Shown: positions 4,196-26,078 of the stretch, one piece after another
Position numbering within the stretch: the stretch's first letter is position 1
Layout of the letters: the number at the start of each line of letters is the position of its first letter
Origin: Pseudomonas sp. KU43P
GTDB lineage: Bacteria > Pseudomonadota > Gammaproteobacteria > Pseudomonadales > Pseudomonadaceae
Direction of reading: 5' to 3'
DNA length: 64,000 nucleotides
NCBI RefSeq assembly: GCF_033095865.1
Contig: NZ_AP019365.1
Coordinates: 3,445,501 to 3,509,500, forward strand
Program-made: the position numbers and the translations under genes
The notes under the pieces: generated by a model
What the model was told of the DNA's origin: nothing
What the model saw: only the letters and a program-made list of their open reading frames with translations
Database searches by the model: none

Positions 4196-4211
4196 CGGCA
4201 CGACGATTGCT
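4196..4211 (+). promoter_or_regulatory. Sigma-54 (-24/-12) promoter of sfnECR
   Basis: CGGCAC-GACGA-TTGCT, with GG and GC separated by exactly 10 bases, against the consensus TGGCAC-N5-TTGCW. The start would be near 4222, 27 bases before the sfnE ATG. In P. putida DS1 sfnR is reported as CysB-regulated, so a sigma-54 site here suggests additional or autogenous control. Confidence 0.75.
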
Positions 4212-4248
4212 CAAGCAAAGTCCCGCTTAACTGAACCGGAGACCTGCC

Positions 4249-4809
4249 ATGAGCGCCCCCCTGAACGTCGTTGCCCTGTCCGGCGGCACCAGCCGCCCTT
4301 CGCGTACCCTGGCCCTGACCGAGGCCATCCTCGCCGAACTCGGCCAGCACCTGAACATCAAGCCCCACCTGATCGAGCTGGGCGACATCGCCCGCCCCCT
4401 GGGCGCCGCGCTGTGGCGCAGCGAACTGCCGGAGTCCGTGGAGCAACAGCTGCGCCTAGTGGAAAAGGCCGACCTGTTGGTGGTGGCCTCGCCGGTCTAC
4501 CGCGGCAGCTTCCCAGGCCACTTCAAGCACTTGTTCGACCTGATCGGCCAGGATGCCCTGGTTGACACCCCCGTGTTGCTGGCCGCCACCGGCGGCAGCG
4601 AACGCCACGCCCTGGTGCTGGACCACCAGCTGCGCCCGCTGTTCAGCTTCCTCCAGGCTCTGACCCTGCCGATCGGCGTGTATGCAAGCCAGGCCGAGCT
4701 GGCCGACTACCAAGTGTCCAGTGAGGGCTTGAACGCCCGCATCCGCCTCGCCGCCGAGCGCGCCGTGCCGTTGTTCGGCGCCCACCACGCGCTGCGCAAG
4801 AGCGCCTGA
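4249..4809 (+). CDS. sfnE: NAD(P)H-dependent FMN reductase SfnE
   Basis: 186-residue flavodoxin-fold FMN reductase of the MsuE/SsuE group. The phosphate loop SGGTSRPSRT is at about residues 10-20 and SPVYRGSFPG at about 81-90. It supplies reduced FMN to two-component monooxygenases acting on organosulfur compounds. First gene of a run E-C-R with 9-base gaps, matching the order of sfnECR described for dimethyl sulfide/sulfone use in P. putida. It is the only FMN reductase gene in the left half of the window, so it may also feed the monooxygenases at 9320, 20414 and 21778. Confidence 0.87.
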   Translation: MSAPLNVVALSGGTSRPSRTLALTEAILAELGQHLNIKPHLIELGDIARPLGAALWRSELPESVEQQLRLVEKADLLVVASPVYRGSFPGHFKHLFDLIGQDALVDTPVLLAATGGSERHALVLDHQLRPLFSFLQALTLPIGVYASQAELADYQVSSEGLNARIRLAAERAVPLFGAHHALRKSA

Positions 4810-4818
4810 GGAGCGGCC

Positions 4819-6006
4819 ATGAATGCACCGGTAACCCCTGCCCAGCGCCCCGCCCTGGCGATTGCCCGCGAACTGGCCGGGCAGTTCGCCCACAGCGCCG
4901 TCGAGCGTGACGAACGCGGCGGCACGCCCAAGGCTGAGCGCGACGCGTTGCGCGCCAGCGGCCTGCTGTCGCTGGCGATTCCGCAGGCCTTCGGCGGCCA
5001 GGGCGCCAGCTGGCAGCAAACCTTCGAGGTGGTGCGCGAGTTCGCCCGCGTCGACAGCTCGCTGGCGCACGTGTTCGGCTTCCATCACCTGATGCTGGCC
5101 ACCGTGCGCCTGTTTTCGCGCCCCGAACAGTGGCAGCCGTGGTTCGAACAGACCGCGCGCAAGCACTGGTTCTGGGGCAACGCGCTCAACCCACTGGACA
5201 CCCGCACGGTGGTCAAGCACTTCGATGGCTGGTGCGAGTTTTCCGGCAAGAAGAGCTTCTGCTCCGGCGCCAGCGACTCGGAAATGCTGATTGCCTCGGC
5301 CGTGGACGAACGCGCCGGCGGCAAGCTGCTGATTGCCGCGATCCCCAGTGGCCGCACCGGCATCACCCTGCACAACGACTGGAACAACATCGGCCAGCGC
5401 CAGACCGACAGTGGCAGCGCCACCTTCGAACGGGTGCGGGTCGAGCTGGGTGAACTGCTGCTCGACCCCGGCCCGCTGAGCACCCCGTTCGCCGCCCTGC
5501 GCCCGCTGATCGCGCAGCTGCATTTCGCCAACCTGTTCCTCGGCATCGCCGAAGGCGCATTCGACGAAGCCCGCCAGTACACGCTCAAGGAAAGCCGGCC
5601 GTGGTTCCGTTCAGGCGCCACCAGTACCGCCGACGACCCTTATGTACTGCGCCACTACGGCGAATTCTGGGTCGGCCTGGAAAGCATGCGGCTGCTGATC
5701 GAACGGGCCGCTGAGCAACTGGACCGGGCCTGGGCCAAGGAGCATGCGCTCAGCGCCGAAGAACGCGGCGACCTGGCCCTGGCCATCGGTACCGCCAAGG
5801 TCGCGGCCACCCGCCACGGCCTGGACATCTGCAACCGCCTGTTCGAAGTCACCGGCGCCCGCGCCACCCACGCTTCGCTGCGCTTCGACCGCCATTGGCG
5901 CAACCTGAGAACGCAAACCCTGCACGACCCGGTGGATTACCGCATCCACGAGCTCGGCGAGTGGGCTCTCAGCGGCAAGCGCCCTGCCCCATCCTTCTAT
6001 TCCTAA
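4819..6006 (+). CDS. sfnC: Acyl-CoA dehydrogenase-like flavin monooxygenase SfnC
   Basis: 395 residues, the usual length of the DszC/SfnC branch of the acyl-CoA dehydrogenase superfamily, which uses reduced flavin and oxygen rather than acyl-CoA. Visible family segments are IPQAFGGQGAS near 55, GQRQTDSGSATFERV near 195 and LRFDRHWRNLRTQTLHDP near 355, the last a hallmark of the DszC-like group. Lies between sfnE and sfnR in one operon. Its exact substrate is not established by the sequence. Confidence 0.85.
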   Translation: MNAPVTPAQRPALAIARELAGQFAHSAVERDERGGTPKAERDALRASGLLSLAIPQAFGGQGASWQQTFEVVREFARVDSSLAHVFGFHHLMLATVRLFSRPEQWQPWFEQTARKHWFWGNALNPLDTRTVVKHFDGWCEFSGKKSFCSGASDSEMLIASAVDERAGGKLLIAAIPSGRTGITLHNDWNNIGQRQTDSGSATFERVRVELGELLLDPGPLSTPFAALRPLIAQLHFANLFLGIAEGAFDEARQYTLKESRPWFRSGATSTADDPYVLRHYGEFWVGLESMRLLIERAAEQLDRAWAKEHALSAEERGDLALAIGTAKVAATRHGLDICNRLFEVTGARATHASLRFDRHWRNLRTQTLHDPVDYRIHELGEWALSGKRPAPSFYS

Positions 6007-6015
6007 GGATCGCCC

Positions 6016-7116
6016 ATGCAATTGCTGACCCTCCCCCCGTCCCCGCAACTGGCTACCTCGATCAGGGCGACCGCACAGGTCTTCGAAGACCCTAAATCGC
6101 AGGCGCTGCTCGCCCACCTGCAACAGGTCGCCCCCAGTGAGGCCAGCGTCCTGATCATCGGCGAAACCGGCACGGGCAAGGAGCTGGTCGCGCGCCATAT
6201 CCACAACCTCAGCGGCCGCCGCAACGGCCCATTCGTGGCAGTCAACTGCGGTGCGTTCTCCGAGTCGCTGGTCGAGGCCGAGCTGTTCGGCCATGAAAAG
6301 GGCGCCTTCACCGGCGCCCTGGCGGCCAAGGCCGGCTGGTTCGAGGAAGCCAATGGCGGCACGCTGTTCCTCGACGAGATCGGCGACCTGCCGCTGCCGA
6401 TCCAGGTCAAACTGCTGCGCGTGCTGCAAGAGCGCGAGGTGGTGCGGCTGGGGTCGCGCAAGAGCATCCCCATCAATGTGCGGGTGCTGGCGGCGACCAA
6501 CGTGCAGCTGGAGAAGGCCATCAATGCCGGGCATTTCCGCGAGGACCTGTACTACCGGCTGAACGTGGTGACCCTGCAACTGCACCCACTGCGTGACCGG
6601 CCGGGGGATATCCTGCCACTGGCCCGGCACTTCATCCGTAGCTACAGCGAACGGCTGAACTACGGGCCGGTGGAGCTGAGCCCCAAGGCCCAGGCCAAGC
6701 TGGTCGAATACAGCTGGCCGGGCAATATTCGCGAGCTGGAGAACGTGATTCATCACAGCCTGCTGACGTGCGGTGACGGGCTGGTGCAGGCGCAGGATCT
6801 GCGTCTGTCCAACCTGCGCCTGGAGCGGCAGGAGGAGGAAACCGTGAGCAATGGCGTGGATGACCTGCTGCTGCAGGCGTTCAGCCGTTTGTACGAGGAG
6901 CAGCCTGGGGATTTGTACGAGAAGGTCGAGAATGCGTTACTGCGCTCGGCGTATCACTTCTGCCATTACAACCAAGTGCATACCGCGCAGTTGCTGGGGT
7001 TGTCACGCAACGTCACGCGTACGCGGCTGATTGCGATCGGAGAGCTGGTGGTGAACAAGCGGCGGGTGCAGGAAGAACAGGTAGTGGATGCTCGGGTGGT
7101 GCGGTTGTCGATCTGA
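6016..7116 (+). CDS. sfnR: Sigma-54-dependent transcriptional activator SfnR
   Basis: 366-residue enhancer-binding protein that lacks an N-terminal sensory domain: the AAA+ domain begins at about residue 25. Walker A GETGTGKE, the sigma-54 contact loop GAFTGA, Walker [11 protein letters not shown] and the arginine-finger region [11 protein letters not shown] are all present. A Fis-type helix-turn-helix is at about 325-345 ([17 protein letters not shown]). With no receiver domain, activity is expected to be set by its amount. Four sigma-54-type promoters in this window are likely targets. Confidence 0.92.
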
Positions 7117-25691: not shown

Positions 25692-25729
25692 AGCATTCCC
25701 TTTATATAAACGGCTACATAAAGTGCTCC

Positions 25730-25745
25730 TGCAGTTGTCGTGCCA
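25730..25745 (-). promoter_or_regulatory. Sigma-54 (-24/-12) promoter of the second ABC/monooxygenase operon
   Basis: Minus strand: TGGCAC-GACAA-CTGCA, full -24 hexamer and exact GG-N10-GC spacing; about 39 bases from the GTG start at 25691. Confidence 0.77.
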
Positions 25746-25844
25746 GTATTTTTCGGCCTATTTATTGGGCCTTACCCAATTCCAACAGAAATAAACCGAA
25801 CAAACTGTGCGGTTGCTGTTGCCAAGCAAACACTTAGCCAGCGC

Positions 25845-25927
25845 GGCCCCTGTAGGAGCGGATTTATCCGCGATCGCGGCAGTGGCCCCACCTCAGCAAT
25901 CGCGGATAAATGCGCTCCTACAGGGCC
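25845..25927. repeat. Type-II hairpin repeat between divergent promoters
   Basis: Arms GGCCCCTGTAGGAGCGGATT and its counterpart ending GCGCTCCTACAGGGCC, about 29 bases each, 24-base loop; the TAGGAGCGGATTTATCCGCGAT core recurs at 56970. The rest of the 462-base region 25692-26153 contains only the two promoters and AT-rich DNA. Confidence 0.88.
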
Positions 25928-26062
25928 TGCATTTCAATTTGGTAATTTGTATATAACCAGTACTGTTCTACAAACAACACCTCCACAACAAAACTTGGAT
26001 CCTTGTTCACTTCATTCAATAAATAGACCGGCCACCCCCGTAACTTCCGGCACGTTGCAAGC

Positions 26063-26078
26063 TGGCACAGAAACTGCT
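26063..26078 (+). promoter_or_regulatory. Sigma-54 (-24/-12) promoter of the TonB receptor
   Basis: TGGCAC-AGAAA-CTGCT, GG-N10-GC exact, 76 bases before the receptor ATG; nearly identical to the divergent site at 25730-25745. Confidence 0.77.

Follow-up and report, generated by a model that had tools for sequence, protein, structure and literature searches.

How is a block of genes for organic-sulfur use switched on in a pseudomonad, and does the activator SfnR, encoded within the block, command all of it? This question was raised by a stretch of 64 kb (C1:3445501-3509500 of a Pseudomonas genome that is a single contig of 5.87 Mb; this whole stretch is called the window, and positions are counted within it), in which a sulfur block extends from 4249 to 28262. 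The genes sfnE-sfnC-sfnR form a row on the plus strand. One minus-strand row encodes, in order, a substrate-binding protein (SBP1), two permeases and the ATPase of an ATP-binding cassette (ABC) importer, an SfnB-like enzyme and a transporter of the major facilitator superfamily (MFS); the other encodes SBP2, a permease, an SfnB-like and an NtaA-family enzyme, an aldo-keto reductase, a further permease and an ATPase. The gene for a TonB-dependent receptor is divergent from the SBP2 row. Gene order and small gaps suggest that each minus-strand row is a single operon; the SBP1 row is interrupted by a gap of ~165 bases holding repeats that resemble repetitive extragenic palindromic (REP) elements. 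A preliminary description of this DNA had assigned the whole 4-28 kb block to SfnR, acting through four sigma-54 promoters. It was found that the block is very likely a regulon with several promoters through which SfnR directs the scavenging of organic sulfur.

The four described sigma-54 sites were all present, each with the exact GG-N10-GC arrangement, so that a -24/-12 element precedes each target operon:

4196..4211, plus strand: predicted sigma-54 promoter P2 of sfnECR, CGGCACGACGATTGCT
15918..15933, minus strand: predicted sigma-54 promoter of the SBP1 operon, CGGCACAACTCCTGCA; orthologous sites in L001, L083/L182 and L084/L183
25730..25745, minus strand: predicted sigma-54 promoter of the SBP2 operon, TGGCACGACAACTGCA; pattern also before the SBP2 orthologs in L184, L186 and L187
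26063..26078, plus strand: predicted sigma-54 promoter of the TonB receptor, TGGCACAGAAACTGCT; kept upstream of receptor relatives

The distances to the start codons at 4249, 15880, 25691 and 26154 were 37, 37, 38 and 75 bases, respectively. The start at 15880 is a TTG with a ribosome-binding site and a lipoprotein-like leader, and that at 25691 is a GTG, also with a lipoprotein-like leader. The pattern YGGCAC-N5-YTGCW matched exactly these four places in the 64 kb (shuffle mean 1.01; 1 of 100 shuffles reached four), and 61 places in the whole genome compared with 30 for the reversed pattern. Because the four sites themselves had served to define this pattern, a separately learned upstream element is the stronger proof.

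Such an element, a shared upstream SfnR motif as the preliminary description had suggested looking for, was indeed found. In sfnE/msuE upstream regions, an inverted repeat, CTGTTGCC-N2-GGCAACAG, was aligned some 100 bases ahead of the sigma-54 site. The 80 SfnR loci yielded 47 usable upstream regions of this kind, which together with the window made 48, all distinct over the last 100 bases. A position weight matrix (PWM) was built from 36 distinct sequences, the best matches of 43 regions that included neither the window nor L001-L004; a few of these training matches (e.g. L017, L065, L010) come from outside the usual position. The best matches in the window were located 71-87 bases upstream of the four sigma-54 sites, and the five best distinct places in the 64 kb were all putative upstream activating sites (UAS) of these promoters:

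16003..16024, minus strand: SfnR-like UAS of SBP1; PWM score 20.8, top match in the window
25814..25835, minus strand: SfnR-like UAS of SBP2; PWM score 19.3, second-best place
25961..25982, plus strand: SfnR-like UAS of the TonB receptor; PWM score 14.6, third-best distinct place
4090..4111, plus strand: SfnR-like UAS 2 of sfnECR; PWM score 12.3, fourth distinct place; repeat core present within three mismatches in 46 of the 48 upstream regions (shuffle mean 5.5, largest 12)
4064..4085, plus strand: SfnR-like UAS 1 of sfnECR; PWM score 11.9, fifth distinct place, at the predicted start of an upstream promoter, P1

The two sfnE repeats are orthologous to the training set, and those of SBP1, SBP2 and the TonB receptor are not. 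A paired scan of the window (UAS>=8, sigma-54>=9), whose allowed gap was picked after the four promoters had been seen, returned these four promoters and nothing else; an order-2 Markov null gave 10 matches in 30 simulated windows.

Repeat and sigma-54 site were then treated as one strict composite, TGTTN7CAACA-N(66-95)-GGNAYN5YTGCW, a definition that leaves the sfnE repeat, a variant, outside its reach. The window's genome contained three matches (SBP1, SBP2 and TonB), all within the block, and one match to the reversed control; 149 Pseudomonas genomes contained 210 and 3, respectively. The composite was present in 80 of the 90 genomes with a close SfnR and in 5 of the 59 without one (10 genomes had SfnR alone and 54 neither; Fisher p=2.7e-24), and 80 of the 85 composite genomes carried a close SfnR. 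Among 150 listed sites, 25 had a composite length of 103-106 and 125 a length of 114-121, with none elsewhere in the allowed range of 97-126; the window's own values were 104, 103 and 115, and the sfnE variant measured 119. The offset between the two bands, ~11 bases, is close to one turn of the helix, which would be expected of an activator that has to face the polymerase; common ancestry within gene classes also plays a part in the banding.

Eight proteins encoded downstream of the composite in other genomes were assigned by family models. Three were true SfnG (3/3 of the SfnG sequences tested, 612-626 bits against a cut-off of 383), two were true SfnB, one belonged to the SsuA family and for two NCBIfam gave nothing at E <= 1e-20. 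Other recurring downstream products were MsuE, TonB receptors and SBP1; at least one site (L170), with no reading frame before +220, appears to be fortuitous. The shared site thus also precedes genes of established SfnR targets (sfnG and the sfnB/sfnA pair). Since sfnFG is, going by the title of Endoh 2005, an experimentally studied SfnR target, the presence of the composite before sfnG ties the repeat to SfnR.

The regulon is also predicted to reach past the block. With a slightly loosened pattern, a fifth candidate promoter was found elsewhere in the same genome at C1:2332503-2332632 (L218, L223), before a gene for a true SfnB (636 bits, cut-off 430.9), with an NtaA-family monooxygenase gene also downstream. 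By eye, a second, overlapping half-repeat at this place would give the standard spacing. A further cluster (L220, C1:5616000-5626000) contains two SfnB-like genes, an NtaA-like gene and genes for ABC ATPases; only one sub-threshold pair of repeat and sigma-54 site was found there, and this cluster is perhaps controlled otherwise.

The promoters of the transport genes were found to be conserved. Homologs of the TonB receptor (E <= 1e-120) occurred in 99 of the 149 genomes, and 30 loci of those 99 genomes were compared. All 24 receptors at 49-100% identity, the window's included, had an upstream sigma-54 site scoring 10-11 of 11; at 45-47% identity the site was found in none of the five testable homologs, the sixth having no upstream DNA in its locus. 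TonB promoters kept a gap of 83-84 in six genomes and SBP1 promoters one of 72-73 in four, the window included in both, and the three SBP2 orthologs listed above match the composite pattern. A paralog of the receptor (L221, C1:2065526-2067532; 45% identical) is encoded in the same genome, with no repeat/sigma-54 pair in the surrounding 7 kb.

On account of the separately learned shared element with its banded spacing, the co-occurrence with sfnR and the conservation at orthologous promoters, it is very probable that the two ABC operons and the TonB receptor are under a single SfnR/sigma-54 system. At low sulfate, SfnR would be produced from sfnECR, bind the repeat upstream of these three promoters and loop to the sigma-54 polymerase waiting at GG-N10-GC, whereupon the promoters would open. 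The receptor and two peptide/nickel-type ABC importers would bring in organic sulfur compounds, and two SfnB/DszC-like monooxygenases, one NtaA/DmoA-family flavin monooxygenase, MsuC and the reductase of flavin mononucleotide (FMN) would desulfurize them. In P. aeruginosa PAO1, SfnG, SfnR1 and MsuCDE are raised when sulfur is lacking (PMC12581299).

The activator itself and its two companions are encoded as follows:

4249..4809, plus strand: sfnE, MsuE-type FMN reductase; TIGR03566 254.3 bits, above the cut-off of 212.5
4819..6006, plus strand: sfnC, MsuC-type methanesulfinate monooxygenase; PDB 6u76 matched at E=2.8e-207
6016..7116, plus strand: sfnR, sigma-54 activator without sensor domain; PF00158 at residues 24-187

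SfnR (366 residues) agreed with its earlier description: GAFTGA, read off the DNA, is intact, and the Pfam scan gave sigma-54/AAA-type domains alone, beginning at residue 24, with no sensor domain. No helix-turn-helix was returned by Pfam at E <= 0.001, and the resemblance of the C-terminus to Fis is a judgement by eye alone. The protein is 95-96% identical to SfnR of P. vlassakiae, P. putida NBRC 14671 and P. hunanensis, and 74-96% identical to the 80 relatives kept. It is a sensor-less sigma-54 AAA+ activator in an sfnECR/msu context, as expected of an SfnR ortholog.

The claim that SfnR controls the entire block held strongly for the ABC operons and the receptor, but sfnECR showed an additional conserved promoter, of sigma-70/CysB-like type:

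4010..4039, plus strand: AT-rich box, presumed CysB-like; aligned in relatives
4052..4057, plus strand: sigma-70-like -10 element TATAAC of the putative upstream promoter P1; conserved as TATAAM

A box of the form GGAATAW/TTATTC/GAATAA/AATAAG lay near the first of these places in 38 of the 48 upstream regions (shuffle mean 5.5, largest 14), and 33 of them had TATAAM at 139-145 bases ahead of the sigma-54 site (shuffle mean 0.5). A generic TTGACA/TATAAT sigma-70 scan did not pick up P1. Its predicted start is near 4064, exactly where the first SfnR-like site begins. In strain DS1, CysB reportedly activates sfnECR, and SfnR is said to repress it by binding downstream of the start; this fits P1 and the SfnR-like sites at its predicted start.

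It is possible, if rather unlikely, that sfnECR is driven purely by CysB and sigma-70, with SfnR only a repressor and the sigma-54-like site before sfnE silent or serving occupancy and not transcription. Besides the reported behavior in DS1, the conserved -10 element and CysB-like box and the position of the UAS pair at the predicted P1 start speak for this explanation. Against it, a sigma-54 site scoring >=9 of 11 was found in 48/48 upstream regions (70 bases examined; shuffle mean 1.3, largest 6), and the TT before its GC was likewise present in 48/48, GG and GC themselves having been search requirements. The spacing from this site to the repeat is of the same class as at the other targets. 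The idea that the sfnE sigma-54 site is spurious, as would be expected from a CysB-driven sfnECR, was overturned by its conservation in all 48 regions.

We infer from the P1 features and the conserved sigma-54 site that a hand-over from P1 to P2 is the simplest reading; sfnECR is thus probably a relay with a sigma-70/CysB-like and a sigma-54 promoter, and not a plain SfnR-activated operon. The upstream CysB-type promoter would start SfnR synthesis, and SfnR, binding between the two promoters, would obstruct P1 while activating the downstream P2. A broader proposition seems to us evenly poised between right and wrong: that this relay is conserved at Pseudomonas sfnECR/msu operons, with the CysB-type sigma-70 promoter acting first and SfnR then shutting P1 and looping to a sigma-54 start ~160 bases downstream; that the reported repression is one half of a hand-over of SfnR onto its own sigma-54 supply; and that SfnR commands a dedicated group of organic-sulfur TonB receptors.

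Several observations weigh against SfnR control as drawn here. The strict composite was missing from 10 of the 90 SfnR genomes and present in 5 of the 59 without a close SfnR; in one of the latter (G070), with nothing SfnR-like above 55% identity, it stands ahead of a true sfnG. The genomes and loci share ancestry, which makes counts and spacing bands non-independent, and the spacing is fitted equally well by periods of 11 and 12. The repeat alone was unspecific genome-wide (338 matches against 289 in the control at two mismatches), and a relaxed pattern gave four matches in the window's own genome and two in its control. At the transport genes, five TonB relatives of 75-77% identity (L195-L199) have their best repeat off the standard spacing, several TonB orthologs have a weak UAS (scores 9-12), the SBP2 orthologs in L184 and L186 fall under the matrix threshold of 8, and in L010, where TonB and SBP genes lie beside sfnR, no composite was found before them at the thresholds used. 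The passages of PMC12581299 on sulfur starvation in P. aeruginosa PAO1 name no sulfur-related TonB receptor. The TTGCW form of the sigma-54 motif, at two mismatches, matched the window 51 times where 50.1 were expected by chance, so that the sigma-54 sites alone are weak evidence.

The five exception genomes raise the question of whether the repeat is recognized, and these promoters governed, by a sigma-54 activator other than SfnR. Each of them has 12 to 19 matches of the activator superfamily; two have partial SfnR-like stretches, and three have the composite with no SfnR-like protein above 55% identity. Nevertheless, the composite tracks close SfnR (80/90 versus 5/59) and precedes sfnG, sfnB and sfnR's own operon, which makes another activator improbable. 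That the four GG-N10-GC sites arose by chance from a high GC content, a view favored by the chance-level frequency of the looser motif and by the possibility that about half of the 61 genome matches are background, is extremely improbable given the paired UAS at banded spacing, the orthologous conservation and the genome-wide specificity.

The remaining genes of the predicted regulon point to its function:

7941..9389, minus strand: MFS transporter, final gene of the SBP1 operon; start uncertain; the best 25 of 51 NCBIfam matches are all MFS families, none above cut-off
9320..10531, minus strand: SfnB/DszC-like flavin monooxygenase 1; TIGR04022 342 bits, under the cut-off of 430.9
10697..12406, minus strand: ABC system 1, fused double ATPase; two PF00005 stretches
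12403..13266, minus strand: ABC system 1, permease; Opp/Nik permease families (scan began at an upstream start)
13263..14261, minus strand: ABC system 1, permease; Opp/Nik permease families
14246..15880, minus strand: ABC system 1, substrate-binding lipoprotein SBP1; PF00496 288 bits
16591..18237, minus strand: ABC system 2, fused double ATPase; two stretches matching ABC ATPase families
18234..19100, minus strand: ABC system 2, permease; PF00528; start approximate
19217..20368, minus strand: aldo-keto reductase; NF007912 467 bits, cut-off 415
20414..21763, minus strand: NtaA/DmoA-family FMN monooxygenase; TIGR03860 520.1 bits, above the cut-off of 279.7
21778..23022, minus strand: SfnB/DszC-like flavin monooxygenase 2; TIGR04022 268 bits, under the cut-off of 430.9
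23044..23976, minus strand: ABC system 2, permease; Opp/Nik permease families
23973..25691, minus strand: ABC system 2, substrate-binding lipoprotein SBP2; PF00496 266 bits
26154..28262, plus strand: TonB-dependent receptor; PF00593 and PF07715

The sfnC product scored under both the SfnB cut-off (278 bits for TIGR04022) and the DszC cut-off, and neither it nor SfnB/DszC-like monooxygenases 1 and 2 reached the SfnB family threshold. The closest solved structures were YtnJ, MoxC, nitrilotriacetate (NTA) monooxygenase and DszA for the 20414..21763 product, a probable monooxygenase, DszC and MsuC for the 21778..23022 product, and YncD/PqqU for the receptor. No protein in the window's genome reached the SfnG cut-off (TIGR04021, 382.95); the best score, 147.9 bits, belonged to SsuD, which is encoded outside the window. 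As no SfnG over the family cut-off exists in this genome, 'sulfone' use is probably the wrong label for the block. A TonB receptor and two ABC importers, combined with SfnB/DszC-like and NtaA/DszA/YtnJ-like enzymes, point to the import of larger organosulfur compounds and the cleavage of their C-S bonds.

The SfnR/sigma-54 regulon of P. putida DS1 is said to comprise sfnECR, sfnFG and sfnA. The block shares with it the order sfnE-sfnC-sfnR, a sensor-less sigma-54 activator and sigma-54 targets for FMN-dependent sulfur oxygenases, and the window's composite also precedes sfnG in other genomes. It differs in that SfnG over the cut-off is missing from the genome, that the predicted targets add two ABC operons and a TonB receptor, and that sfnECR itself is proposed to have a conserved sigma-54 promoter. 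On sequence evidence it is a larger regulon of an already known type, SfnR/sigma-54. The msuEDC-sfnR clusters of other pseudomonads likewise combine MsuE and MsuC homologs with sfnR and have the same UAS and sigma-54 site before msuE. In 33 of 47 loci the msuE-msuC gap is 0.9-1.5 kb, a spacing that would leave room for msuD; in 12 of 47 the two genes are adjacent, as are sfnE and sfnC in the window. The pairing of a DszC-like with an NtaA/DszA/YtnJ-like flavin monooxygenase recalls the DszA/DszC- and YtnJ-type systems, whereas the window's enzymes score under the curated DszC and SfnB cut-offs. The enteric CysB/Cbl regulons (ssu, tau) follow the same sulfate-starvation logic, with an ABC importer, an FMNH2 monooxygenase and a reductase, but use LysR-type activators on sigma-70 promoters, whereas the block would use an enhancer-binding protein on sigma-54. 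Among the open-licence papers searched, no account of sfnECR, nor of sfnA together with sfnB, turned up, and the one paper on msuEDC that came up with SfnR names this protein in its reference list alone.

If these predictions are right, SfnR gains a readable DNA code (repeat, spacing and promoter), usable to list SfnR targets in Pseudomonas genomes. They would also place outer-membrane uptake within the sulfur-starvation response under sigma-54, and the dual sfnECR promoter offers a testable reason for the appearance of SfnR as a repressor of its own operon.

Some minor features were observed in and around the block. Ahead of it, 440-1591 resembles the large subunit of methylamine dehydrogenase (161.7 bits, far under the cut-off of 454). 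A small open reading frame of ~77 residues (16141-16377, minus strand) lies between both ABC rows and has no NCBIfam match at E <= 1e-5. REP-like palindromic elements of the CCTATCGCCGGCAAGCCGGCTCCCACAG type were seen by eye in the intergenic stretches 3900-3990, 7125-7215, 10570-10675, 16030-16105 and 16520-16585, one of them being within the SBP1 row. Degenerate short tandem repeats of the TTCGTGGTTGGC type, also recognized by eye, occupy 7320-7410, 3' of sfnR.

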